From Streptomyces sp. YIM 130001 (lineage in GTDB: Bacteria; Actinomycetota; Actinomycetes; Streptomycetales; Streptomycetaceae), in assembly GCF_003574445.1 (NCBI RefSeq), contig NZ_KZ984551.1:194262-258261 (forward strand): a DNA stretch of 64,000 nt, in the 5' to 3' direction. Under the pieces are notes generated by a model. It did not search any database. It had not been told where the DNA came from and saw nothing but the letters and a program-made list of their open reading frames with translations. A program made the translations under genes and the position numbers. Of the stretch, positions 29,085 through 55,429 are shown one piece after another. Position 1 is the first letter of the stretch. Each line of letters opens with the position of its first letter.

Positions 29085-30332
29085 TCAGCGCGGTGGGCGC
29101 ACCGGACTGCGGTAGTGGTCCGCCACCACCTTGGCCATCGCGCCGGTCGGGTCCTGGCGGATCTCCGTCCCCGAGAAGTACGCGTGTCCGCGCGCCTCGG
29201 GGAAGTCCCTGGCCAGGGTGAGGTGCCGGGAGAGTTCGGCCGGATCCTGCCAGGGCTCGGGCTGCGCGGGGTCGCCGGCCTTGTACAGCGCCTCGCCGAC
29301 GATCAGCTGCACGTCGGTGCCGCGTACGGTCTCGGCCCACCAGGGCAGGAGCTTGGCGTAGTCGGCGTCCTGGAAGCCGATGTTCCAGTACAGCTGGGGC
29401 GCGATGTAGTCGATCCAGCCGTTCCGGATCCACTGGCGGGTGTCGGCGTGCAGATCGTCGTAGGTCTGGACGCCTGCGGCGGTGTCGGAGCCCTCGGGGT
29501 CGGTCGCCCTGTTCCGCCAGACGCCGAACGGGCTGATGCCGAAGCGCACGTCGCGGCGTACCTGCCGGATGCGCTCGGACATCTCGCACACCAGACGGTC
29601 CGTGTTGTCACGGCGCCAGGCTGCCTTGTCCGGGAAGTCCGCGCCGTAGCGCCGGTACGTCTCGTCGTCGTCGAAGACCTCGCCCTCGACGGGATACGGG
29701 TAGAAGTAGTCGTCCCAGTGCACCGCGTCGATCGGATAGCGGCGGACCGCGTCCAGCATCGCGTCCTGGACGAAGCGGCGGACCTCCGGGATCCCGGGGT
29801 TGTAGTAGAGCTTCCCGCCGTACGGCAGTACCCAGTCGGGGTGCAGGCGTGCGGGGTGGGACGGTGAGAGCTTGCCGGGGTCCGCGTGGATCGCGACACG
29901 GTAGGGGTTGAACCAGGCGTGCAGTTCGAGGCCTCGCCGGTGTGCCTCCTCGACGGCGGTACCGAGCGGGTCCCAGCCCGGGTCGCGGCCCTGGACGCCG
30001 GTGAGCACCTCGGACCAGGGCTCGTACGGCGAGGGCCACAGGGCGTCCGCGGTCGGGCGGGCCTGGAAGATCACCGTGTTGAGCCGGCGGTCCACCGCGG
30101 TGTCGAGGAACCCGATGAGCTCGGCACGCTGCTGCTCGGCGCTCTGCCCCGGAGTCGTCGGCCAGTCCCTGTTGTCGACACTGGCCACCCACATCCCGCG
30201 GTACTCCGGACGGCCGGTCGCCGGCCCCGGAGCCCCGGGCCTGCCGGGTGCGGCAGCCGCGTCCCCGGCCGTCGCGATCCCGGTGAGAGCGGCCGCCGCG
30301 GCTACCGTGAAGCCCCTGCGCGTCATATGCAC
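29085..30332 (-). CDS. Tat-exported GH10-like glycosidase (YngK/DUF187 type)
   Basis: A protein of about 415 residues. TRRGFTVAAAAALTGIATAG is a twin-arginine signal. The mature part is the GHL10 fold (PF02638 type): GMWVASVDNRDWPTT, VIFQARPTADALW, ELHAWFNPYRV, AVHWDDYFYPYP and FGISPFGVWRNRA. These enzymes are extracellular hydrolases of peptidoglycan- or exopolysaccharide-like sugars; substrate unknown. The start is GTG 30332, six bases after GGGGGTG; the ATG two codons later is equally possible. Divergent from the dehydrogenase gene. Confidence 0.85.
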   Translation of the reverse strand: MHMTRRGFTVAAAAALTGIATAGDAAAAPGRPGAPGPATGRPEYRGMWVASVDNRDWPTTPGQSAEQQRAELIGFLDTAVDRRLNTVIFQARPTADALWPSPYEPWSEVLTGVQGRDPGWDPLGTAVEEAHRRGLELHAWFNPYRVAIHADPGKLSPSHPARLHPDWVLPYGGKLYYNPGIPEVRRFVQDAMLDAVRRYPIDAVHWDDYFYPYPVEGEVFDDDETYRRYGADFPDKAAWRRDNTDRLVCEMSERIRQVRRDVRFGISPFGVWRNRATDPEGSDTAAGVQTYDDLHADTRQWIRNGWIDYIAPQLYWNIGFQDADYAKLLPWWAETVRGTDVQLIVGEALYKAGDPAQPEPWQDPAELSRHLTLARDFPEARGHAYFSGTEIRQDPTGAMAKVVADHYRSPVRPPR

Positions 30333-30568
30333 CGAATGCACCCCCTTGCAACTTCTGTCAGCAGTGGTCCCGCACAGGATGCCCGCCCCCGTCACCGGAT
30401 GCACAGAACCTCGGAGTACCGTCGTGGGCTCGAGGGGTGCCCCGAAGGTCTTTTGCGGCGCCCCCGGTAAGCGGTCCCGACCGGACCGAGGGCGGGAGAC
30501 CAGCTCCGGAAGACGGGCGCCGCTCCTTGACGGCGCCGGTCGGCCCGAAGATCTGCGAGAGGCACGAG

Positions 30569-31441
30569 GTGACTGACCCCATGGGGGATATTGCACGCGT
30601 CGGAGTAGTCGGATGCGGCCAGATGGGTGCGGGGATCGCGGAGGTCTGCGCCCGCGCCGGTCTGGATGTGAAGGTCGCCGAAACCACCGGCGAGGCCCTC
30701 GAGTTCGGCCGTACCCGACTGCTCAGCTCCCTGACCAAGGCGGCCGAGCGCGGCAAGATCTCCGAGGAGGAGCGGGACGCCTCACACGCCCGGCTGAGCT
30801 TCACCACGGATCTCGGCGAGTTCGCCGACCGTGACCTGGTGATAGAGGCGGTGGTGGAGAACGAGGCGGTCAAGACCGAGATCTTCCAGGTTTTGGACCA
30901 CGTCGTGACCCGCCCCGACGCGATCCTCGCGTCGAACACGTCGTCCATCCCGCTGGTGAAGCTGGCCGTCGCCACCTCGCGGCCGGATCACGTCATCGGC
31001 ATCCACTTCTTCAACCCCGCCCCCGTGCAGCAGCTCGTCGAGCTGATTCCGGCACTGACCACCTCGGAGGGGACGATCAGCCGGGCCGAGGCCGTCGTCG
31101 AGAAGGTGCTCGGCAAGCACGCGATCCGCGCCCAGGACCGCTCGGGCTTCGTGGTCAACGCCCTGCTCATCCCGTATCTGCTCTCCGCGATCCGGATGTT
31201 CGAGTCGGGTATCGCGAGCCGCGAAGACATCGACAACGGCATGGAGATGGGCTGCGCGCACCCGATGGGTCCGCTGAAACTGGCCGATCTCATCGGCCTG
31301 GACACGGTCCACTCCGTCGCCGACTCGATGTACGAGGAGTACAAGGAGCCGCTCTACGCCGCTCCCCCGCTGCTGCAGCGCATGGTCGACGCCGGACGGC
31401 TCGGCCGTAAGTCCGGCTCGGGCTTCTACACGTACTCCTGA
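30569..31441 (+). CDS. 3-hydroxybutyryl-CoA dehydrogenase
   Basis: A 290-residue NAD(P)-dependent dehydrogenase acting on 3-hydroxyacyl-CoA in acetoacetyl-CoA metabolism. The Rossmann motif is GCGQMGAG (G15, G17, G20). SNTSSIPLVKLA binds substrate; GIHFFNPAPVQQLVEL contains the catalytic His-Glu region; the C-terminal domain has NALLIPYL and GMEMGCAHPMGPLKLADLIG. GTG 30569 is preceded by GAGAGG at six bases. Monocistronic, with a terminator following. Confidence 0.9.
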   Translation: MTDPMGDIARVGVVGCGQMGAGIAEVCARAGLDVKVAETTGEALEFGRTRLLSSLTKAAERGKISEEERDASHARLSFTTDLGEFADRDLVIEAVVENEAVKTEIFQVLDHVVTRPDAILASNTSSIPLVKLAVATSRPDHVIGIHFFNPAPVQQLVELIPALTTSEGTISRAEAVVEKVLGKHAIRAQDRSGFVVNALLIPYLLSAIRMFESGIASREDIDNGMEMGCAHPMGPLKLADLIGLDTVHSVADSMYEEYKEPLYAAPPLLQRMVDAGRLGRKSGSGFYTYS

Positions 31442-34773: not shown

Positions 34774-37700
34774 TCAGCGCGTCGCGCGACTCAGCCGCAA
34801 CGTGACCAGCTCGAACGGCCGCAGGTCCAACGGCACGGCACCGTCAGACGGTTCGGGCACCTGGACGTCGGGGAGCGGCCGCTCCAACAGGTCGGTCGCC
34901 ACCACCCCGGTGACCGGGAAGCCGGTGTTCAGCCGCACCCGTGCGCGGCCCCCGGTCGACTCGTAGAGCCGCACCACCACGTCACCGCTCGCGTCGTCCG
35001 CGAGCTTCACCGCGCTGACCACCACCGCGTCGTCGTCGACCGTCACCAGCGGGGCCACCTCGGAGCCACCGGACACCCGCCGCTCGGGCAGGTTCGTGCG
35101 GAAGCCCTCACGTACCGCATCCGAGATCGTCGCGCCCGGCACCAGGGCGTGCCGGAACCGGTGCAGCCCCTGGTCGGTCTCCGGGTCCGGGAAGCGGGGC
35201 GCGCGCAGCAGCGAGACCCGGACGGTCGTGGTCGTCCCCCGCCGCACCCCGGCGGCCGCGTCGGCGGCCCGCACGGTACGGGTCACATCGTGGCCGTACG
35301 TCGAGTCGTTGACGAGCGCCACGCCCCAGCCGGGCTCCTCCAGGTGTACGAAGCGGTGGTTGCAGGCCTCGAACTTGGCCGCCTCCCAACTGGTGTTGGT
35401 GTGGGTGGCCCGGTAGAAGTGCCCGAACTGCGTCTCGGAGGCGTACCGCTCGGCGTGCAGGTCGAGCGGGAAGGCGGCCTTGAGGAACTTCTCCGTCTCG
35501 TGCCAGTCGACCTCGGTGTCGATGTCCAGGCGCTTGACGCCGGACGGCAGCGCGAGCACCTGGGTGACCCGCGAGTCGCCGAAGGCACGCACGACACGGA
35601 CCGCGGGTGTGCCGTCCGCGCCGGTGAGCGCGGTCATCTCGTCGAGGGCGGTGAGGTCGGTGACCGTGTTGCGGTAGAACTCGTCCACGTCCCAGGCGTC
35701 CCACATGTTCGGGAAGTCGGGGTGGATCTGGAGCAGGTTCGCGGCGCTGCCGGGTGCCACGGTCTCGCGCTCGTGCTCCTGGTCGTAGGCGGAGACGACG
35801 AGTCCGCGGGCGTCGATCTCGACACGCAGAAGTCCGTTGTCCAGGATGTGCCCGCCGCCGGGCCGGTCGGTGATCGCGCTCTCGCCGTCGACCGTGGCCG
35901 CCGCGGCGCCGCCCGCGGGGACTCCGGTGCGGGCATGCGGAGCGGAGTTGAAGGTGAGCGTGCGCGTGCCCTCCCCCGCGAGCGCGCACTGGGCGGCGTC
36001 CACGATGCCGTTCAGCTCCTCGGCCACCGCGGCGTACGTCCTCTCCGCCTCGCGGTGCACCCAGGCGATGGAGGAGCCGGGCAGGATGTCGTGGAACTGA
36101 TGCAGCAGCACCGTCTTCCAGAGCCGGTCCAACTGCTCGTACGGGTAGGGGAACCCGGTCCGGACCGAGGCGGTCGCGGCCCACAGCTCGGCCTCGCGCA
36201 GCAGGTGCTCGCTGCGCCGGTTGCCCTGCTTGGTCCTCGCCTGGCTGGTGAGCGTGGCGCGGTGCAGTTCCAGGTACAGCTCGCCCACCCACACCGGCGG
36301 ATTGACGTACTCGGCCTCGGCCTTGGTGAAGAACTCCTCGGGGGTCTCCCACTGCACGGTCGCCGAGCCCTCGAGGTTCCGCATCCGAGCGGCCTTGGCG
36401 ACCATCTCCCGGGTGGTACCTCCGCCGCCGTCGCCCCAGCCGGTCGGGGCGAGGGAGTGCCGGGCGACGCCCTTGTCCTTGAAGTTCTTCGCCGCGTGGG
36501 CGATCTCGCTGCCCTTCATGGAGCAGTTGTAGGTGTCGACGGGCGGGAAGTGCGTGAAGATCCGGGTGCCGTCGATGCCCTCCCACTGGAAGGTGTGGTG
36601 CGGGAACTTGTTCGTCTGCGACCAGGAGATCTTCTGGGTGAGCAGCCACTTGGAGCCGGCCGCCTTGATGATCTGCGGGAGTCCGGCGGCGAATCCGAAG
36701 GTGTCGGGCAGCCACGCCTCGTCGTTCTCGATCCCGAACTCGTCGAGGAAGAACCGCTTGCCGTGCACGAACTGCCGCGCCATCGCCTCGGAACCCGGCA
36801 TGTTCGTGTCCGACTCCACCCACATACCGCCGGCCGGCACGAAACGGCCCTCGGCGACAGCCGCCTTGACCTTCTCGTACACCTCCGGACGGTGCTCCTT
36901 GATCCAGGCGAACTGCTGCGCCTGCGACATCGCGAAGACGAAGTCCGGCTCGTCCTCCAGGAGCGCGGTCATGTTGGAGGTCGTACGGGCGACCTTGCGC
37001 ACCGTCTCGCGCAGCGGCCACAGCCAGGCGGAGTCGATGTGCGCGTGACCGACCGCGCTGATGCGGTGCGCGGACGGCTGGGCGGGAGTGGTGAGCACCT
37101 CGGTGAGCTGCTCGCGCGCGGCGGCGGCGGTGCCGTTCACGTCCTGCAGGTCGACGGCGTCGAGGGCGCGGTCGACGGCGCGCAGCAGCTCCCAGCGCCG
37201 CGCACTGTCCACGGGTAGTTCCGCCATCAACTCGCCCAGGACTTCGAGGTCTTGGACGAGCTGCCAGACGGAGTCGTCGAAGACGGCGAGGTCCATCCGG
37301 GTCAGTTTGTACTGCGGGTCGCTGCCGGCGGTGTCCTTGTCGCCGAGCTGAGTGGGCAGGAAGGGGTGGTAGTCGAGGATGACCGGGTTGGAGGCGGCCT
37401 CGATGTGCAGGCGCACCTCCTCGCCGCCGTCGACGGGAGCGCCGATGCGTACCCACTGGTTGCGCGGGTTGAGGCCCTTCACCGGGCTGCCGTCGGGCCG
37501 GTAGACCAGCCCCTCGCACTGGAAGCCGGGCATGTTCTCGTCGAAGCCGAGGTCGAGGAGCGCCTCGACGGTGCGGCCCGCCCACTCGGCAGGCACGGTG
37601 CCGGTGACGCGGAACCAGCTGGTGCCCCACGGAGCACCCCACCGCTCGCCGACCGCGATCGGTTCGGGCACGGCGGCGAGGCCTTCGGCGACCGGCACGG

Positions 37701-37824
37701 GCTCGCCGGGCGCGTTCCACACGGCGACCTGGAGCGGGATCGAATCCGGGTACACGGCGGGGCGGATGCGCTCGTCGAGGACGCGCTCGAGTCGGGCCTC
37801 GACCAGGGTGCGGTCGTCATGCAT
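34774..37824 (-). CDS. Alpha-mannosidase, GH38
   Basis: A 1016-residue retaining alpha-mannosidase. An N-terminal beta domain (about 1-255) precedes the catalytic domain, which begins GHAHIDSAWLWPLRETVRK with zinc ligands H and D. WVESDTNMPGSEAM contains the nucleophile Asp and AWLPDTFGFAAGLPQII the substrate loop. The central helical region and C-terminal beta domains (about 630-1016) are those of bacterial type II GH38. No signal peptide, so it acts in the cytoplasm on imported oligosaccharides. GGAG lies eight bases before ATG 37824. It is the last gene of the glycan operon, 30 bases after GH85. Confidence 0.93.
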   Translation of the reverse strand: MHDDRTLVEARLERVLDERIRPAVYPDSIPLQVAVWNAPGEPVPVAEGLAAVPEPIAVGERWGAPWGTSWFRVTGTVPAEWAGRTVEALLDLGFDENMPGFQCEGLVYRPDGSPVKGLNPRNQWVRIGAPVDGGEEVRLHIEAASNPVILDYHPFLPTQLGDKDTAGSDPQYKLTRMDLAVFDDSVWQLVQDLEVLGELMAELPVDSARRWELLRAVDRALDAVDLQDVNGTAAAAREQLTEVLTTPAQPSAHRISAVGHAHIDSAWLWPLRETVRKVARTTSNMTALLEDEPDFVFAMSQAQQFAWIKEHRPEVYEKVKAAVAEGRFVPAGGMWVESDTNMPGSEAMARQFVHGKRFFLDEFGIENDEAWLPDTFGFAAGLPQIIKAAGSKWLLTQKISWSQTNKFPHHTFQWEGIDGTRIFTHFPPVDTYNCSMKGSEIAHAAKNFKDKGVARHSLAPTGWGDGGGGTTREMVAKAARMRNLEGSATVQWETPEEFFTKAEAEYVNPPVWVGELYLELHRATLTSQARTKQGNRRSEHLLREAELWAATASVRTGFPYPYEQLDRLWKTVLLHQFHDILPGSSIAWVHREAERTYAAVAEELNGIVDAAQCALAGEGTRTLTFNSAPHARTGVPAGGAAAATVDGESAITDRPGGGHILDNGLLRVEIDARGLVVSAYDQEHERETVAPGSAANLLQIHPDFPNMWDAWDVDEFYRNTVTDLTALDEMTALTGADGTPAVRVVRAFGDSRVTQVLALPSGVKRLDIDTEVDWHETEKFLKAAFPLDLHAERYASETQFGHFYRATHTNTSWEAAKFEACNHRFVHLEEPGWGVALVNDSTYGHDVTRTVRAADAAAGVRRGTTTTVRVSLLRAPRFPDPETDQGLHRFRHALVPGATISDAVREGFRTNLPERRVSGGSEVAPLVTVDDDAVVVSAVKLADDASGDVVVRLYESTGGRARVRLNTGFPVTGVVATDLLERPLPDVQVPEPSDGAVPLDLRPFELVTLRLSRATR

Positions 37825-37854
37825 GAGGGATGCTCCGGGGGTCGGTGGTGTCTG

Positions 37855-39879
37855 TCACCAGGGATGGACGGCGATGGTGGCGGGGGATGTGCCGTACAGC
37901 TCCCCCACCGTGCGCAGTTCGAACCGGGCCTCGTTCTCGCCCTGTTCGGGCGTGACGTCGGCAGCGAAGAAGGCCTGCTGGCAGGTGGCGCCGAGGAAGC
38001 GCCGGGTGCCGTCGGACAGGACGCGGTGCAGGGCGTCGTAGTGCCGTACCGGCCCGGTCGCGCCGCGCCAGGCGAAGCAGAGTCCGTCGCCGGCGGCCGG
38101 CTCGACGCGTAGTTCGGCGGGGGCTGCCGGTTCCTGCGGGTCGCCGCTTCGCATCGCGAGCGCGCCGAGCCGCCAGGCGACCGCTCCGCTGCCGGTGAGC
38201 CGCACGCCGAGCGCGTGCACCGTGCCTGTGAGGCCGGTAAGGCGCACGGTCGAGGTGGTCCAGTCGCCACCGGAGGTGTGCTCCACCGGCAGATACGTGT
38301 AGGGGTGGGGCTCGCCGGGGGCCTCGGGTTCGCCCGTGGCGACGGCGAGTTCGAGCGCGACGCGGCCCGTGTCGGTGCGGTGGGTGAGTTCGACGACCGT
38401 GCCCTCGGTGAGCGACAGGCGGGTGGCGTACAGGTCCAGCGTCACGGGTGCGTCGAGTGCGCCGTCGACGAGCAGGCTGCTGCCGCCGTGCCAGGCGTCG
38501 GCGAAGTCGAAGGCGGCCTCCGGACGGGTGCCTTCGGTACGCAGGACCCACTGGCGGGACGGCATGCGGTCCTGCAGGCCGAGATGGTTCCAGGGTGTCT
38601 TCGAGGTGATCTCGCCGTTCTCGTACCAGCGCAGCCCGTGGCCGGTGTTGAAGGCGGTGGCGAACGGCAGGGCGTCGACGGTGGACCGGTCGGCGACGGC
38701 GAGCGCGGGCGCGCGCCACGGGTCGTCGGTGTCGGGGCGTGACGGATCGAGTGAACGGCCGCTCCAGAAGCGGGCGTCGGCGGCGTGGAACTGCTCGGGA
38801 GTGCGGTCCTCGGGCAGGTGGTTGCGGGTCCACTCGGGCCGATAGAAGCCGAGGGACGCCGTGTGGTCCCTATCGGACGGCAGGAGGGCGTCCCAGTCGA
38901 CGGACTTGTCCCAGCCGTCGCCCTCCACGTCGACTCCGGCCCACAACTCGTAGCGGCCGCGGTCGAGTCGTCCGGCGAGCCGGCCGGAGGAGGTGAGGTC
39001 CTGCGGCGTCCAGTTGAAGTTCAGGAACATGCTGCTCGCGGCCTCGAAGAACGGCTGGTTGCGGTCGTTGAGCGCATCCTGCCAGTTCACCGAGCCGTCG
39101 ACGGTCATGGAGTCGTACCAGCACACCCGCCCGCCGTGTTCCGCGCCGAGCCGCTTCAGCTCGGCGACGAAGGCGGTCATGTCGGCGGCGAGCTCTTGGT
39201 CGCCGCCGTCGGTCTCCGCGTTGATGAACCAGCCGTCGAAGCCGTACGCGGCGGCGACGGCGGCCAGCCGGTCGGCGATCGGGAAGTGCCCCTCGGAGTC
39301 CTTCTGGACCAGGTCGCGGGTCCACTGCAGGTCGCCGTCGTACGCCACCGGGGGCAGGAACACCGAGCCGAGGACGGGCACCCCGTGCCGGTGGGCGGCG
39401 TCCACGACCGGCGCGTTGGGTGCGACGATCAGGCCCTCCGCGGACGAGCCGCCCCAGAAGACCAGTTCGTCGACGTAGCCCCAGTGGGTGGTGGCGTAGT
39501 AGTCGGCGGTGGGCGAGCCCTGGGCGGGGTTGGCCGCGGTGTCGGCGAACGAGACCAGGGACTGGATGCGGGCCTGGTCGGCACGGGCGGTGGGGTTCAC
39601 CGGGGTCGGGGTGAAGCGCCGGGCGAGGGGCACGGCCGCGCGGTTCGAGGCCAGGTCCGGGTCGTCTTCCGCGCGCCATGTCTTCAGGCTCCGCCAGGTG
39701 ATTCCGTCACCTGGGCTGCCGTCCGGCAGCGAGTCCGGGTACCAGTACGAGGCGTACGGCTGACCGGGCAGCGCGGCGCGAGCCCCGGGTGCCGCCGACG
39801 CGGCGGTGGGTACGAAGGGGGCGGTGAGGGCCGCGGCGGAGGCCACGAGGACGGTTCGTCTGCTGGGCCGGTGGGGCAT
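37855..39879 (-). CDS. Endo-beta-N-acetylglucosaminidase, GH85, exported
   Basis: A 674-residue enzyme that cleaves the chitobiose core of N-glycans, leaving one GlcNAc on the protein. SRRTVLVASAAALTAPF and the ASA-A region near residue 30 make a Tat signal. The GH85 catalytic pair is N220 and E222 in GFDGWFINAETDGG, the substrate-assisted Asn-x-Glu. QPYASYWYPDSLPDG and HWGYVDELVFWGGS are other conserved parts. After residue about 400 come beta-sandwich domains (galactose-binding-like, then Fn3-like to the C-terminus). GGAG lies nine bases before ATG 39879. Confidence 0.9.
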   Translation of the reverse strand: MPHRPSRRTVLVASAAALTAPFVPTAASAAPGARAALPGQPYASYWYPDSLPDGSPGDGITWRSLKTWRAEDDPDLASNRAAVPLARRFTPTPVNPTARADQARIQSLVSFADTAANPAQGSPTADYYATTHWGYVDELVFWGGSSAEGLIVAPNAPVVDAAHRHGVPVLGSVFLPPVAYDGDLQWTRDLVQKDSEGHFPIADRLAAVAAAYGFDGWFINAETDGGDQELAADMTAFVAELKRLGAEHGGRVCWYDSMTVDGSVNWQDALNDRNQPFFEAASSMFLNFNWTPQDLTSSGRLAGRLDRGRYELWAGVDVEGDGWDKSVDWDALLPSDRDHTASLGFYRPEWTRNHLPEDRTPEQFHAADARFWSGRSLDPSRPDTDDPWRAPALAVADRSTVDALPFATAFNTGHGLRWYENGEITSKTPWNHLGLQDRMPSRQWVLRTEGTRPEAAFDFADAWHGGSSLLVDGALDAPVTLDLYATRLSLTEGTVVELTHRTDTGRVALELAVATGEPEAPGEPHPYTYLPVEHTSGGDWTTSTVRLTGLTGTVHALGVRLTGSGAVAWRLGALAMRSGDPQEPAAPAELRVEPAAGDGLCFAWRGATGPVRHYDALHRVLSDGTRRFLGATCQQAFFAADVTPEQGENEARFELRTVGELYGTSPATIAVHPW

Positions 39880-39910
39880 GCGGGTGTGCTCCGTATCGTT
39901 CGTGGACGGC

Positions 39911-41230
39911 TTACGGTGCGGTGCGCAGGGGGCGCTGGGGCGCGGGTTCGTCGGTGGTGCGGGGCGAAACGTCGAGGGCGCCTGCCTGTTCGGGGGTGAC
40001 CACCTCGGTGATGCCGCGGGCGGCCAGGTGGGCGGGGTCGGTGGCGCGGTCGGCGAGGACGGTGGTGGGCCGGGCACCGTCGGCGGTGAGGCGGGCGAAG
40101 GCCTCGAAGACGGCGCCGCCTGGAGCGCAGACCGAACGCCGAGGCGCGGCGCTCTCGTCGCCGGCGTCGACGATCAGGGCCGTGGTGCGGGGGGCGGCGA
40201 TGTGCCGTCGGTCCCGCTGTTCCGCGACGAGATCCGCGATGGCCCGACCGGCCGGCTTGACCCGGCCGTCGTTGGTGAACAGGCCGAGGCTGTACTCGAG
40301 TTCGGGGAAGTCGGCCAGCGACCGTGACACGTCGTGCGAGCACCACCAGGTGACGCCCCACAGGTCCGGGCAGTCCAGGGCGGCCGTCACGGTCGCGGTG
40401 GTGAAGGTGGCGGCGTGCTCGGCGGAGATCAGCGGGGCCGGGGCGCCGACCTCCTGCAGCCAGACCGGGCGATCCGGCTCCAGGGCCCATGCCTTGGACA
40501 GCTCGACGAGATAGGCGGCGTGCTGTTCGGTGGCCACCCCGGTGCGCCCGTGCCGCTGGGCGGTGCCGTTGAACACCCAGGAGTGCACGGCCGTGAGCGC
40601 GCCGATCCTGGCAGCCTGGGCCGGTGTGAAGGGCTGGTCGTCCTGGTACCAGGCGGCGTCGTAGGCGGCATGCAGATGGAGGCGGCCAGGTGCGCCCTGC
40701 TCACAGGCGTCGAGCAGGGTGCGCAGCCAGTGCTCGGCCTGGTCCACCGTGATGCGGTCCGGGTCGGGGTGCGGTCCAGAGGCGAACTGGTTGACCTCGT
40801 TGCCGAGCGTCATTCCGAGGAAGTGGGGCCGGTCTGCGAGGGCCTCGGCGAGAGTGCGCAGGTACGCGGCCTGCCCGGAGACGACGTCCGGATCGGTGAA
40901 GAGGTTGCGCCGGTGCCAGGTCTGGGTCCATGCGGGCAGGAAGTCGAAGCTGGAGAGGTGGCCCTGAAGGCCGTCGACGTTCACGTCGAGGCCGCGTTCG
41001 GCGGCTGCGTCGACGAGCTGGACGAGCTGGTCGACGGCTGCGGGACGGATCAGGGTGCGGTTGGGCTGGAAGAGCGGCCAGAGCGGGAAGACCCGGATGT
41101 GGTCGAGGCCGAGCCCGGCGATCTGGTCCAGATCGGTGCGTACGGCGTCGAGGTCGAAGTCGAGCCAGTGGTGGAACCAGCCCTGGCTGGGCGTGTAGTT
41201 GACGCCGAAACGCGGCGCGGTGGAACTCAT
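39911..41230 (-). CDS. GH5-family mannosidase, probably subfamily 18-like
   Basis: A 439-residue (beta/alpha)8 glycosidase of clan A. Catalytic acid/base E145 is in GMTLGNEVNQF and nucleophile E260 in VWLQEVGAP. RFGVNYTPSQGWFHHW and GLDHIRVFPLWPLF mark the N-terminus. No signal peptide, so it is cytoplasmic. The resemblance is to GH5_18 enzymes; a Bifidobacterium member splits the Man-beta-1,4-GlcNAc left after N-glycan trimming. In this operon the same job is likely. The ATG at 41230 has no clear ribosome site. Confidence 0.78.
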   Translation of the reverse strand: MSSTAPRFGVNYTPSQGWFHHWLDFDLDAVRTDLDQIAGLGLDHIRVFPLWPLFQPNRTLIRPAAVDQLVQLVDAAAERGLDVNVDGLQGHLSSFDFLPAWTQTWHRRNLFTDPDVVSGQAAYLRTLAEALADRPHFLGMTLGNEVNQFASGPHPDPDRITVDQAEHWLRTLLDACEQGAPGRLHLHAAYDAAWYQDDQPFTPAQAARIGALTAVHSWVFNGTAQRHGRTGVATEQHAAYLVELSKAWALEPDRPVWLQEVGAPAPLISAEHAATFTTATVTAALDCPDLWGVTWWCSHDVSRSLADFPELEYSLGLFTNDGRVKPAGRAIADLVAEQRDRRHIAAPRTTALIVDAGDESAAPRRSVCAPGGAVFEAFARLTADGARPTTVLADRATDPAHLAARGITEVVTPEQAGALDVSPRTTDEPAPQRPLRTAP

Positions 41231-41292
41231 GGAGAAGTGGTGTCCCGAATCTCGTGGTGGTGGTCGGCGGGGCGGGGCCTGTACGTGCGGCG

Positions 41293-42207
41293 TCAGCCCT
41301 TCACCGCTCCCTCGCCGACGCCGCGGAAGAAGAACCGCTGCAGGCAGGCGAAGAGGACGATCAGCGGAAGCACGGCGATGATGGTGCCCGCCGCGACGAG
41401 GCGTTCGTCGTTGGCGAAGGTGCCGTGCAGATAGTTCAGTCCGATGGTCAGGGTGAAGTTCTCCGGGTCGGACAGCACGATCAGCGGCCACAGGAAGTCG
41501 TCCCAGGCGCCCATGAAGGAGAAGATCGCGACGACGGCGAGGGTGCCCTTGACCGCGGGCAGGGCGATACGGACGAAGCGCTGCCAGACGTTGGCGCCGT
41601 CCACGAAGGCCGCTTCCTCCACCTCCTGGGGCAGGTTGAGGAAGGCGTTGCGCATCAGCAGGACGTTGAGCGCGCTGACGCAGCCGGGCAGCAGTACGGC
41701 GATCAGGGTGTTGTTGAGGCCCAGGTCCCGCATGGTCGTGAACTGGGCGATGATGATGCCCTCCACGGGCACCAGCATCGCCAGGATGAAGGCGAGCAGC
41801 ACGGCCTTGCGTCCGCGGTAGCGCATCCGGGCCAGGGCGTAGCCGGCGAGTGCGGCGCCGACGCAGTTGGTCAGCACGTTGGTGACGGCGACCTTCAGCG
41901 AGTTCAGGGCGTAGTCCCATACGGGGATGGTGTCGGCGACCCGGCCGTAGTTCCCGAAGGTCGGGTCGCTGGGCAGGAACTCGGGCGGCGAGCTGAAGAT
42001 GTCCTCGTGCGGCCCCTTGAGCGATGTGGACAGCTGCCACAGGAACGGGCCGACCATCAGGGCGAGTACGGCGATCAGCAGCACGTAGCGCACGGCAAGC
42101 TGCCAGAGCGGGACCCGTTTGCCGTTCTCGTCGGTGATCCGCAGGACCCGGGGGGTGCGCCGCCGTTCGGTCGGCTCGGTGGCAGGGTGCGTGGGCGCGG
42201 TGGTCAC
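41293..42207 (-). CDS. Carbohydrate ABC transporter permease (MalG/UgpE type)
   Basis: A 304-residue permease with six membrane spans and the cytoplasmic EAA loop EEAAFVDGANVWQRFVRI, which docks to the ATPase. The start overlaps the stop of the partner permease by four bases. The cluster has no ATPase gene, so the shared MsiK-type ATPase encoded elsewhere is expected to energise it. Likely imports the oligosaccharide released by the GH85 enzyme. Confidence 0.92.
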   Translation of the reverse strand: MTTAPTHPATEPTERRRTPRVLRITDENGKRVPLWQLAVRYVLLIAVLALMVGPFLWQLSTSLKGPHEDIFSSPPEFLPSDPTFGNYGRVADTIPVWDYALNSLKVAVTNVLTNCVGAALAGYALARMRYRGRKAVLLAFILAMLVPVEGIIIAQFTTMRDLGLNNTLIAVLLPGCVSALNVLLMRNAFLNLPQEVEEAAFVDGANVWQRFVRIALPAVKGTLAVVAIFSFMGAWDDFLWPLIVLSDPENFTLTIGLNYLHGTFANDERLVAAGTIIAVLPLIVLFACLQRFFFRGVGEGAVKG

Positions 42208-43166
42208 GCGTCCTCCTTGCGGTCGGCGCGCAGGACGAGCAGCATCAGCGCGACGGTGACGACGAAGACGACGACGGAGATGGCGGAGGCGTAGCCGACC
42301 CGGCCGGAGAGCCCGGTGCCGACGCGCTGCACGAGCATCACGAGAGTGGTGTCCTCGCCGGCAGGGCCGCCGGTGGGCCCGGCCATCAGGTACACCTCGG
42401 AGAACACCTTGAAGGCGGCCACCGAGGCGAGCGCCCCGACCAGGACCATCGTGGAGCGGACCGCGGGCACGGTGACGGTGAGGAAGCGGCGTACCGCGCC
42501 CGCTCCGTCGACCGCGGCCGCTTCGTGCAGCTCACGCGGCACGTTCGCGAGCGCGGCCAGATAAATGATCATGTAGTAGCCGAGGCCCTTCCAGACCGTC
42601 ACGCCCATCGCGCTGAACAGCAGCAGCCACTGGTCACTGAGGAAGCCGACCTTGCCGACACCGACCGCTTCCAGTACGGCGTTGACGAGCCCGCGGTCGT
42701 CCAGCATCCAGACCCAGATCAGGCCGACCACCACGATGGAGGCGACCACCGGGGTGTAGAACGCGGAGCGGAAGAAGGTGATGCCGGGGATGTGCTTCTG
42801 CACCAGCATGGCGAGCAGCAGCGGCAGCAGTACCAGGGCGGGGACGACGACGAGGACGTACAGGGTGCTGTTGCGCAGGCCGATCCAGAACATGTCGTCG
42901 TGCAGCAGTTCACGGAAGTTGGCGAGTCCGACGAACTCGCCGGGGATCAGGGTCCGCTTGTCCGTGAACGCGTTGACCAGGGTGCTCAGGAACGGATACA
43001 GGATGAACACGCCGATGACGAGCAGTCCGGGCGCCGCGAACAGCCAGGGGCTGGCCGGTAGTTGACGTCTGATCCGGCGCTCGGGACGGCCGCCCGTACT
43101 GTGCTGGGCAGAGTCCTCGGCGGTCGGGTCCGGGGAGGTCGCCCGGGTGGCGGTGGGGGTCTTCAT
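42204..43166 (-). CDS. Carbohydrate ABC transporter permease (MalF/UgpA type)
   Basis: A 320-residue permease with a short polar N-terminus and six spans. Its EAA loop reads LHEAAAVDGAGAVRRFLTVTVP. It follows the binding-protein gene by 11 bases and overlaps the second permease by four, so the three are co-translated. Together they make a CUT1-type importer. Confidence 0.92.
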   Translation of the reverse strand: MKTPTATRATSPDPTAEDSAQHSTGGRPERRIRRQLPASPWLFAAPGLLVIGVFILYPFLSTLVNAFTDKRTLIPGEFVGLANFRELLHDDMFWIGLRNSTLYVLVVVPALVLLPLLLAMLVQKHIPGITFFRSAFYTPVVASIVVVGLIWVWMLDDRGLVNAVLEAVGVGKVGFLSDQWLLLFSAMGVTVWKGLGYYMIIYLAALANVPRELHEAAAVDGAGAVRRFLTVTVPAVRSTMVLVGALASVAAFKVFSEVYLMAGPTGGPAGEDTTLVMLVQRVGTGLSGRVGYASAISVVVFVVTVALMLLVLRADRKEDA

Positions 43167-43177
43167 GACGCGGCGGC

Positions 43178-44461
43178 TCAGCTCTGCTTCAGCAGGCGGT
43201 CACAGGTCTTGACAGCGTTGTCCAGTGCCGCCTTCGGGCTCTGCTTGCCCTGCAGGGCCTTGGCCACCTCGTTCTTGAGCTCGACCTTCATCTGCTCGCT
43301 GAACAGCACCGGTGTGTAGTTCTCCGCCGTCTTCAGGGACTCGGCGGCGGCGATCCTGACCTTTGTCTCGTCGGTGCCGTCCTGCTTGCTGAAGTACGGG
43401 TCGTCCAGGGAGCCACGGGTGCTCGGGAAGACGGCGACCTGCTCGGCGAACTGCATCTGCCGGGTCTTGTCCGTCACGAAGTGCGCGAAGGCGACGGACG
43501 CGGGCTTCTGCTTCGTCTGGGAGTTCACCATCACGCCCATGACGTACATGTTGGCCTTGCCGGTGCTGCTGATCTGGTCGGTGATGCCGATGTTCTTGTA
43601 CAGACTCGGGGCGTCCTTCTTGAAGTTCTCCAGGTCGAGGGCGCTGCCCGGGTTCATCGCCACGGACTGGGTCAGGAACTTGTGGCCCGCCGACTCCGGG
43701 GTCGCGGTCAGCGCCTGCCCGTCGAGGCCCTTCGCGTCGTACAACTTCTTGTAGCGGGTGAGGAGTTCGACGCCCTTGGCGTCGTTGAAGGTGAAGCCGG
43801 TGCCTTCCTTGTTCATCAGCGGGACGCCGTAGCGGCCGAAGTCCTCGATGGCCGGGACGTTGGCGAGGGCGGCGACCTTGCCCTTGCTGTTCTTCGCCAG
43901 CTCGGTGCCCGCGTCGAAGACGTCGTCGTACGTCTTCGGGGGCTTGTCCGGGTCGAGTCCGGCGTCCTCGAAGAGCTTCTTGTTGTAGAAGACCGGGCCG
44001 GTGTTCAGGTACCAGGGGAAGGCGAACGTGCCGTCCGTGCCCGGTATTTGATGGCTCTTCCAGGCGCCGTCCAGGTACTCCTTGCGGTACTTCGACGCGG
44101 CCTCGTCGAGGTCGAGGGCGAGGCCGGCCTTGGCGAGCGGGGCGACCAGGTCCGGGGAGACGTTGACGACGTCGGGCAGGGTGCCGCCCGCCGCGTCGGC
44201 GCTGATCTTGTCGGCGTATCCCTCGGCCGGCCGGTCGACCCACTCCACCTCGGTGCCGGGGTTCTTCTTCTCGAAGTCGGCGATGACCCCGTTGAAGTAG
44301 TCCTTGAACTCCGCCTTCAGGTTCCAGGTCTGGAAGGTGATCTTGCCCTCGACCTTGCCGGAGGCGTCGCTCGACCCGGAGTCGGAACCGCCGCAGGCGC
44401 TGAGTGGCAGGACGGTGGCGAGTGCGGCGGCAGTGGCGAGGGCCCTGCGGGAGATACGCAC
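43178..44461 (-). CDS. Sugar-binding lipoprotein of the ABC importer
   Basis: A 427-residue solute-binding protein. The signal peptide MRISRRALATAAALATVL ends in the lipobox LSAC, giving a diacylglyceryl-Cys anchored protein. The mature domain has the family 1 fold: FQTWNLKAEFKDYFNGVI, FAFPWYLNTGPVFYNKKLF, MNKEGTGFTF. First gene of the glycan operon, facing the lacI gene across an inverted-repeat region. Confidence 0.93.
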   Translation of the reverse strand: MRISRRALATAAALATVLPLSACGGSDSGSSDASGKVEGKITFQTWNLKAEFKDYFNGVIADFEKKNPGTEVEWVDRPAEGYADKISADAAGGTLPDVVNVSPDLVAPLAKAGLALDLDEAASKYRKEYLDGAWKSHQIPGTDGTFAFPWYLNTGPVFYNKKLFEDAGLDPDKPPKTYDDVFDAGTELAKNSKGKVAALANVPAIEDFGRYGVPLMNKEGTGFTFNDAKGVELLTRYKKLYDAKGLDGQALTATPESAGHKFLTQSVAMNPGSALDLENFKKDAPSLYKNIGITDQISSTGKANMYVMGVMVNSQTKQKPASVAFAHFVTDKTRQMQFAEQVAVFPSTRGSLDDPYFSKQDGTDETKVRIAAAESLKTAENYTPVLFSEQMKVELKNEVAKALQGKQSPKAALDNAVKTCDRLLKQS

Positions 44462-44605
44462 GGTGAACGGCTCCTTAGTTCGGACCAGGCGTGCGGACGG
44501 AAGGGACGCCAGGGCGGTGACGAAGAACCGCCGACTGCGTTCGAAGCAGACCTTGCACGGCGGCCCGGGAGAAAGTCAACAGATTCACCGGCAAAAGCTT
44601 TACTG

Positions 44606-44741
44606 TCTGACACAACTGCAGGTCAGAGCAGCCGTTTTGCGGGATTGCCAGCTCTGACTAATGCGCTTTAGAGTCCCCGACTCAAGCGCATTAGTCAGAC
44701 GGCGCACGCCTCTCGACCGGAGCCGCTCAAAGCCTTACGAT
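44606..44741. promoter_or_regulatory. Divergent regulatory region of the glycan operon and lacI
   Basis: Within this 309-base gap, 16-base arms TCTGACTAATGCGCTT and AAGCGCATTAGTCAGA (44653-44668, 44684-44699) are perfect. Inner arms GAGTC/GACTC surround CCC. CTAATGCGCTTTAG is itself nearly palindromic with a central CpG, as LacI-family sites require. A second TCTGAC...GTCAGA pair lies at 44606-44627. For lacI, TCGACC (44713-44718) and TACGAT (44736-44741) are 17 bases apart. Confidence 0.65.
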
Positions 44742-44770
44742 GCGCAGGACCAACGGGGAAAGGGGCACGG

Positions 44771-45898
44771 GTGGCAGCGAACTCCCCGTCCGCCAGGGAC
44801 ATTCCGCCGTCCCGCCGCACCGCCGCGCGCAGGCCGACGATGAAGGACATAGCCCAGCGGGCCGGAGTCTCGGAGAGCGCAGTCTCGTTCGCGCTCAACG
44901 ACCGCCCAGGGGTGTCCGAGGTAACCCGCGACCGAATCCGGCGCGTGGCCGCGCAGTTGGGCTGGCACCCGAGCACCGCCGCACGGGCGCTGTCCGGGGA
45001 GGGCTCGGCGACGGTCGGCCTCGTGGTGGCCAGACCCGCGCAGACACTCGGCGTCGATTCGTTCTTCCTGCAGTTGATCTCGGGGATCCAGGAGGTGCTC
45101 GCCGAACGCCGACTCGGCCTGCTCTTCCAGGTGGTGGACGACGTCGAGGCCGAGTGCGCGGTCTACCGGCGCTGGTGGGCCGAGCACCGCGTGGACGGCG
45201 TCCTGGTGGTCGATCCGCGGGTCGACGACCCGAGACCTGCCCTGCTCGCCGAACTCGCCCTGCCCGGGGTGGTCATCGGCGGCCTGCCGGGCGACGATCC
45301 GCATGCGGGTCTCTCCCAGATCCGCGCGGACGACGTCGGCGCCATGGCCGCCGTCGTCGGCAGGCTCTACGACCTCGGCCACCGCCGTATCGTGCACATC
45401 GCGGGCCTCGACTCACTCGCCCACACCGAGCGGCGTATCCGCACCCTGCGCGAGGAGGCCGGCCGCCGGGGACTGACCGGCGCCCGGTCGGTCACCACGG
45501 ACTACTCCGACACCGAGGGCGCCACGGTGACCCGCCGCGTCCTGGAGGAGACCGACCCGCCCACCGCCCTGATCTACGACAACGACGTGATGGCCGCCGC
45601 CGGCGCCGCCGTCACCGCGGGGCTCGCCCGCGGCATCCCCACCGACGTGTCGATCGTGTCCTGGGAGGACTCCGTACTCTGCCGCATGGTCCACCCCTGG
45701 CTCACGGCGCTCTCCCGGGACACCCTCGCCTTCGGCCGCCTCGCCGCCCAGGAACTCACCGCCCTGCTCGACGGCGGCCCCGAGCGCACCGTCCAGGTCC
45801 CGCTGCCGGCACTGATCGAACGGGAGAGCACGGGGCTCGTCTCCGGCGGCGGGGGGCAGGCCCCTGCGACTCCCCCGGGTCAGCCGGACGCGTCGTAG
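44771..45898 (+). CDS. LacI-family repressor of the glycan operon
   Basis: A 375-residue regulator. After a polar N-terminal extension of about 20 residues, the LacI HTH follows (TMKDIAQRAGVSESAVSFAL, then NDRPGVSEVTRDRI). The ligand domain is of the periplasmic-binding-protein type (VGLVVARPAQTLGVDSFF, then GHRRIVHIAG). GTG 44771 lies at a suitable site after GGGGCACGG. Likely relieved by a mannose-containing oligosaccharide. Its 3' end overlaps the convergent WYL gene by 19 bases. Confidence 0.9.
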   Translation: MAANSPSARDIPPSRRTAARRPTMKDIAQRAGVSESAVSFALNDRPGVSEVTRDRIRRVAAQLGWHPSTAARALSGEGSATVGLVVARPAQTLGVDSFFLQLISGIQEVLAERRLGLLFQVVDDVEAECAVYRRWWAEHRVDGVLVVDPRVDDPRPALLAELALPGVVIGGLPGDDPHAGLSQIRADDVGAMAAVVGRLYDLGHRRIVHIAGLDSLAHTERRIRTLREEAGRRGLTGARSVTTDYSDTEGATVTRRVLEETDPPTALIYDNDVMAAAGAAVTAGLARGIPTDVSIVSWEDSVLCRMVHPWLTALSRDTLAFGRLAAQELTALLDGGPERTVQVPLPALIERESTGLVSGGGGQAPATPPGQPDAS

Positions 45899-55047: not shown

Positions 55048-55078
55048 GAAAAATGCCCCGGACGATCACATGCGGGGC
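55048..55078 (-). terminator. Intrinsic-terminator hairpin in the infC leader (attenuator candidate)
   Basis: On the minus strand GCCCCG and CGGGGC pair over a 12-base loop and are followed by ATTTTT, a textbook intrinsic terminator, rare in such a GC-rich genome. It lies 88 bases before the infC start and after the promoter, so it could attenuate the operon. A five-codon ORF (MEPRM) ends in the loop. Confidence 0.7.
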
Positions 55079-55429
55079 TCCATCGGTACCGGAACACCGC
55101 CGCGATCACGCGGGGCGCAGAGGGCTGCCGCTCGAAGCAGCTGCCTGACCGGTGACCCGCCACTCTCACGAGCGGCCAGGTGGGAGATCGGAGCCTCCAC
55201 TTGTGGGCCGGGCACAGGGGTGTCCGACCGGTCGATGACCAAGCATACCAGCGTTCGGCAGTACAGCAGCCCGGCCAGGTGCGGCGCCTTCCGCGCGGCG
55301 GGCGGGGCGGTCCACCGGGCCCCGTCCAGGGGCGTCCGTACGGCGTGGCCCGGGCGCCCTTTACTCTGGACCGGCCGTCCACCGTACGCATCCCGTACGT
55401 GCCCCCAGGAACCCCCAGGAAGTAGACGC
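55079..55429. promoter_or_regulatory. infC leader/promoter and DUF1844 upstream region
   Basis: The longest gene-free stretch near infC. On the minus strand TGGTATGCT is an extended -10 (hexamer 55242-55247) without an obvious -35, giving an infC leader of about 270 bases. GTGAGAGTGGCGGGTCACC-like segments can form alternative stems. No conserved element was recognised for the plus-strand gene except AGGAAG before its ATG. Confidence 0.4.

Follow-up and report, generated by a model that had tools for sequence, protein, structure and literature searches.

Gene organization of the locus

Within the window (the whole 64,000-nucleotide stretch of Streptomyces sp. YIM 130001 DNA that was analyzed), positions 34774 to 45898 hold seven genes. 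Reading from left to right, these encode GH38, GH85, and GH5 enzymes, permease 2, permease 1, and a binding lipoprotein, all on the reverse strand, followed by a divergent LacI-family regulator on the forward strand (Table 1). A sequence-only reading had proposed this set, and open reading frames, Pfam searches, and solved relatives confirm it. Pfam matches exceeded curated cut-offs for Glyco_hydro_38N/38C/mid/38C2, Glyco_hydro_85, BPD_transp_1 (in both permeases), SBP_bac_1, and LacI with Peripla_BP_3, while an NCBIfam search of all seven proteins gave no equivalog at cut-off. The two permease reading frames share 4 bases, and the lipoprotein gene starts with GTG, with AAGGAG upstream. A longer, mechanically called GH85 reading frame starting at 40077 is unlikely, since it overlaps the GH5 gene.

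Table 1. Features of the predicted N-glycan utilization locus (positions in the window)
Feature	Position	Strand	Remarks
GH38 alpha-mannosidase	34774-37824	-	1016 aa; predicted cytoplasmic, no signal peptide
GH85 endo-beta-N-acetylglucosaminidase	37855-39879	-	674 aa; ATG start; predicted Tat-secreted (SRRTVLV...ASA-AP)
GH5_18 beta-mannosidase (Man-beta-1,4-GlcNAc), predicted	39911-41230	-	439 aa; predicted cytoplasmic
ABC sugar permease 2 (MalG/UgpE type)	41293-42207	-	PF00528, 73 bits
ABC sugar permease 1 (UgpA/MalF type)	42204-43166	-	PF00528, 43 bits
Solute-binding lipoprotein	43178-44461	-	PF01547 (SBP_bac_1), 142 bits; lipobox LPLSAC-G
Putative LacI-type operator O1, CTAATGCGCTTTAG	44658-44671		Exact match to CTAANGCGCNTTAG
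Putative LacI-type operator O2, CTCAAGCGCATTAG	44681-44694		One mismatch; 23 bp from O1
LacI-family regulator, divergent	44771-45898	+	PF00356 (LacI) and PF13377 (Peripla_BP_3)

GH38, GH5_18, a binding protein, two permeases, and a local regulator thus occur side by side, the gene complement by which a Gram-positive N-glycan locus is recognized. The locus had also been called complete; all seven genes are indeed present, but no ABC ATPase gene lies among them. An MsiK-type shared ATPase serves sugar ABC importers in Streptomyces, and because the locus itself encodes none, it is complete only if the shared ATPase serves its permeases. The nearest solved relatives of the binding protein score 91 bits at best and do not indicate its ligand. 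Elsewhere in the window, positions 55048 to 55236 (reverse strand) match the Rfam Streptomyces RNA Scr1601 at 147.5 bits, and a reverse-strand reading frame at 29085 to 30596, which has a Tat-like signal, resembles a secreted glycoside-hydrolase-like protein.

Enzymes and their predicted locations

Pfam gave no match for the GH5 protein at an E value of ≤0.001. Among solved structures, it scores 744 bits against ScGH5_18 (PDB 7LR7), presumably the Streptomyces cattleya enzyme, 440 bits against BlGH5_18, and 376 bits against the C. acnes exo-beta-1,4-mannosidase, versus only 85 bits for the next GH5. Given this wide gap in match scores, the protein is firmly predicted to belong to subfamily 18, as the sequence-only reading had held. 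It carries GNE at residues 143 to 145 (Glu145) and QEVG at 259 (Glu260), which correspond to the acid/base and the nucleophile of CaMan5_18 from C. acnes, for which two catalytic glutamates have been described (PMC6160142).

The GH85 protein (PF03644, 284 bits) scores 343 bits against the Arthrobacter-type ENGase (2VTF/3FHA) versus 230 bits against Endo D, a closeness that would fit activity on high-mannose glycans, short of proof. Its catalytic N-x-E motif (FINAET) is intact, as it is in 61/61 aligned relatives, and its N terminus, MPHRPSRRTVLVASAAALTAPFVPTAASA, is a Tat-type signal, with a comparable RR motif in most of the relatives inspected. The GH38 protein contains four GH38 domains (PF01074 at 321 bits, PF07748, PF09261, and PF17677), scores 843 bits against PDB 7UFS, named "Alpha-mannosidase," and also matches the Ams1 type. 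Its metal-site motif, GHAHIDSAWLW, is kept in 90 of 91 orthologues, with M replacing I in the remaining one. The rest of the genome has four further GH38 matches and several GH92 matches; GH125 is absent from the genome. The Tat-type signal of GH85, the lipobox of the binding protein, and the lack of a signal peptide in both GH5 and GH38 agree with glycan release outside the cell and trimming inside, the placement predicted earlier.

A conserved putative operator pair and its probable regulator

Two 14-bp imperfect palindromes, O1 and O2, lie between the lipoprotein and LacI genes, each centered on CG, a feature of LacI-family operators. Using the half-site TGACTAATGCGCTT as a literal query produced extra matches in the genome at a chance level when two mismatches were allowed, and the element was redefined as the 14-bp palindrome. 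A scan for sites with at most two mismatches in the gap between the LacI and binding-protein genes covered the 81 loci that have this divergent pair; at least one site was found in 76 of them and at least two in 74. Of these 74 loci, 62 have their first two sites 23 or 24 bp apart, and two others show a spacing of 35 or 36 bp. Beyond the intergenic region, the same scan found 6 sites in 1.37 Mb of surrounding sequence. Among 150 Streptomyces genomes, the exact 14-mer occurs in 49 of the 81 with GH5_18 versus 8 of the 69 without (Fisher P = 4e-10). A promoter-like consensus match at 44645 to 44674, directed toward lacI, overlaps O1; as a consensus match only, it would fit repression. No earlier description of the operator was found in the literature searched.

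The five remaining loci (L047, L071, L118, L121, and L159) lack such sites. Their LacI proteins show ~54% identity and have the recognition helix VSKGAVS versus VSESAVS, and the gap between their LacI and binding-protein genes holds a CCGG-centered palindrome, CTAAACCGGTCTAG, in 5/5 cases. GH85 in these loci is encoded beyond LacI on the other strand. The five loci are mutually related, so that the covariation amounts to one or few events, and it is the pattern that a true regulator-operator pair would show. The palindrome is therefore conserved near its regulator and covaries with the recognition helix, as is expected of a LacI-type operator, and the variant set offers natural regulator-operator pairs for tests of LacI specificity. 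Divergent control, like every enzyme assignment of the earlier reading, is borne out, and the conserved operators support a single regulated unit.

Distribution across Streptomyces

The survey sample consisted of 150 genomes drawn evenly from the genus, of which 81 encode GH5_18. Gene content was compared in 109 loci longer than 12 kb, comprising the window, 40 loci from the 150 genomes, and named records picked by GH5 closeness; the genome-derived and named-record sets overlap, and counts from the 109 loci are therefore not independent. With that reservation, exactly the seven genes of the window occur in the same order in 47/109 loci, and most others have the core genes. Because this order recurs across the genus, the arrangement is not due to chance. 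The same set without GH85 was found in 30/109 loci, and in four tested cases (G002, the closest relative, G092, G122, and G135), GH85 is absent from the whole genome. GH85 is, for these reasons, an accessory to a stable core and not a fixed part of it. A decayed copy of the locus in G044 (L238:2967-7912) retains LacI, the operator, a permease fragment, and GH38.

Operator sites outside the main locus

Thirteen regions with sites outside the main locus were inspected. The locus is split in G053 and G038, where an operon for a binding protein, two permeases, and GH38 is unlinked from the GH5-GH85 half. The former has the site (in one and two copies, respectively), and the latter bears the operator too. 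In G092 (L228:3040-3981) and G080 (L229:3038-3970), an exact operator lies ~70 bp upstream of a GH18 gene whose product has a signal-like N terminus and best solved matches to 2Y8V and 4AC1. The latter is named an endo-N-acetyl-beta-D-glucosaminidase, and we take it to be Trichoderma Endo T. This Endo T-like GH18 is rare (5/150 genomes). G092 has the operator-preceded GH18 and no GH85 in its genome; the G080 contig ends after GH5. In G085, a weaker site with two mismatches precedes the same GH18, and a distant GH85 relative (28% identity) lies beside the locus, which means that any replacement of GH85 by GH18 is not strict. The Endo T-like GH18 may be a stand-in for GH85. The operator thus serves as a sequence handle for unlinked parts of the pathway, having led to the split importer operons and to GH18.

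Another of the regions is the operator within the decayed locus of G044, and six of the 13 are those of a different LacI family. The exact sites seen in G081 and G107 have nothing clearly related nearby; they look like chance matches and were not retained as regulon members. In the window's own genome (G000), two near-identical LacI-type sites, CTAATGCGCATTAC and CTGATGCGCATTAG, are located where another LacI gene begins on contig C13 (C13:119624-119650; L039:6625-6651), which adjoins a gene for an FAD-dependent oxidoreductase. Six sampled genomes in which GH5_18 had no match (L230-L235) encode orthologues of this second LacI, with CTAATGCGCATTAG nearby. The C13 site was rejected as a second regulon member, because the LacI gene is a different one and its orthologues keep the site in these six genomes; it is attributed instead to a distinct regulator whose site is similar.

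Proposed pathway and alternative explanations

We propose, with high confidence, that the locus is an N-glycan utilization operon under a local LacI-family repressor. Outside the cell, Tat-exported GH85 would cut high-mannose N-glycans off glycoproteins, with one GlcNAc left attached to the protein. The lipoprotein would then bind the released Man(n)GlcNAc, and the two permeases would import it, presumably powered by an ATPase encoded elsewhere. In the cytoplasm, GH38 would strip the alpha-mannoses, on the assumption that a single GH38 handles all alpha linkages, and GH5_18 would yield mannose and GlcNAc by splitting the leftover Man-beta-1,4-GlcNAc. The six reverse-strand genes would form a single transcript, repressed by LacI bound to the two operators, spaced by ~23 bp within the divergent promoter region, until the oligosaccharide or a breakdown product let it go. 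This order of release, import, alpha-trimming, and core cleavage had been suggested from the sequence, and as a prediction it is well supported. The gene set very probably lets a soil streptomycete cut, import, and digest the glycans of fungal, plant, or animal glycoproteins, and the survey confirms that such a set for eukaryotic glycoprotein sugars is common among soil streptomycetes.

Two other readings concern what the locus consumes. The substrate might be some other mannose-containing compound, such as mannan oligosaccharides from fungal cell walls or mannosides of bacteria, with GH85 merely incidental; the absence of GH85 from 30/109 loci, and from the entire genome in four cases that retain the core, points that way, as does the plentiful supply of GH38 and GH92 enzymes in the genome. 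We nevertheless regard this as very improbable, since the N-glycan core, Man-beta-1,4-GlcNAc, is the substrate of those GH5_18 relatives whose activity is known, and since in two genomes, one of which lacks GH85, the operator stands before the gene for a secreted Endo T-like GH18, which represents another N-glycan endoglycosidase type. It is less far-fetched, if still unlikely, that scavenging is the main role of the locus, its sources being free N-glycans or Man(n)GlcNAc that other organisms have released, with GH85 used only occasionally. The conserved core, an importer plus cytoplasmic enzymes accompanied by a variable endoglycosidase, would suit such a habit; yet GH85, where present, is co-directional within the gene run, keeps its catalytic motif intact, and has a Tat signal in most inspected relatives.

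A further doubt is whether the palindromes are operators of another regulator and not of the adjacent LacI. The near-identical sites that a different LacI family has at its own start, on C13 and in L230-L235, lend this idea some substance, but the operator and the adjacent LacI, the latter in its recognition helix, change together in all five variant loci, mutually related as these are, and we give the idea little credence. Returning to the adjacent LacI as the regulator, we find it somewhat probable that Streptomyces has a dedicated N-glycan regulon. One orthologous LacI would act on a tandem CTAATGCGCTTTAG-type operator to control a core of importer, GH38, and GH5_18, and this control would persist when the genes are split. 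Secreted GH85 and Endo T-like GH18 would be interchangeable under the same operator, and a helix change from ES to KG would go with a change of the operator center from GCGC to CCGG.

Comparison with known systems

The Bifidobacterium longum high-mannose N-glycan operon contains three GH38s and a GH125 (Cordeiro et al. 2022, doi 10.1038/s41589-022-01202-4, via PMC10154615). Its GH38s reportedly act on high-mannose N-glycans after endoglycosidase release, and B. longum has GH5_18 enzymes as well. In contrast, the present locus has one GH38, in a genome without GH125. In C. acnes, a GH38/GH5_18/GH20 locus likewise places GH38, predicted to be cytoplasmic, beside GH5_18, but it has GH20 and GH18 where the streptomycete locus has GH85 (PMC6160142). 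The Arthrobacter-type enzymes (2VTF, 3FHA) are the best solved match to this GH85 over nearly its full length, albeit at a score of only 343 bits.

The closest counterpart is the Streptomyces N-glycan locus with ScGH5_18, which shares a closely related GH5_18 (744 bits) and an N-glycan core pathway in soil actinobacteria. Its enzyme structures are PDB 7LR7 and 7LR8, and the corresponding paper (Higgins et al. 2021, doi 10.1021/acschembio.0c00995) has a title on N-glycan pathways common to gut and soil actinobacteria. The locus itself is not novel, because this type of locus is common in Streptomyces and already published. The one fresh result is the conserved operator, which appears to link the dispersed parts of the pathway, and as far as the searched literature goes, the regulon evidence is a moderately interesting addition to these known systems.
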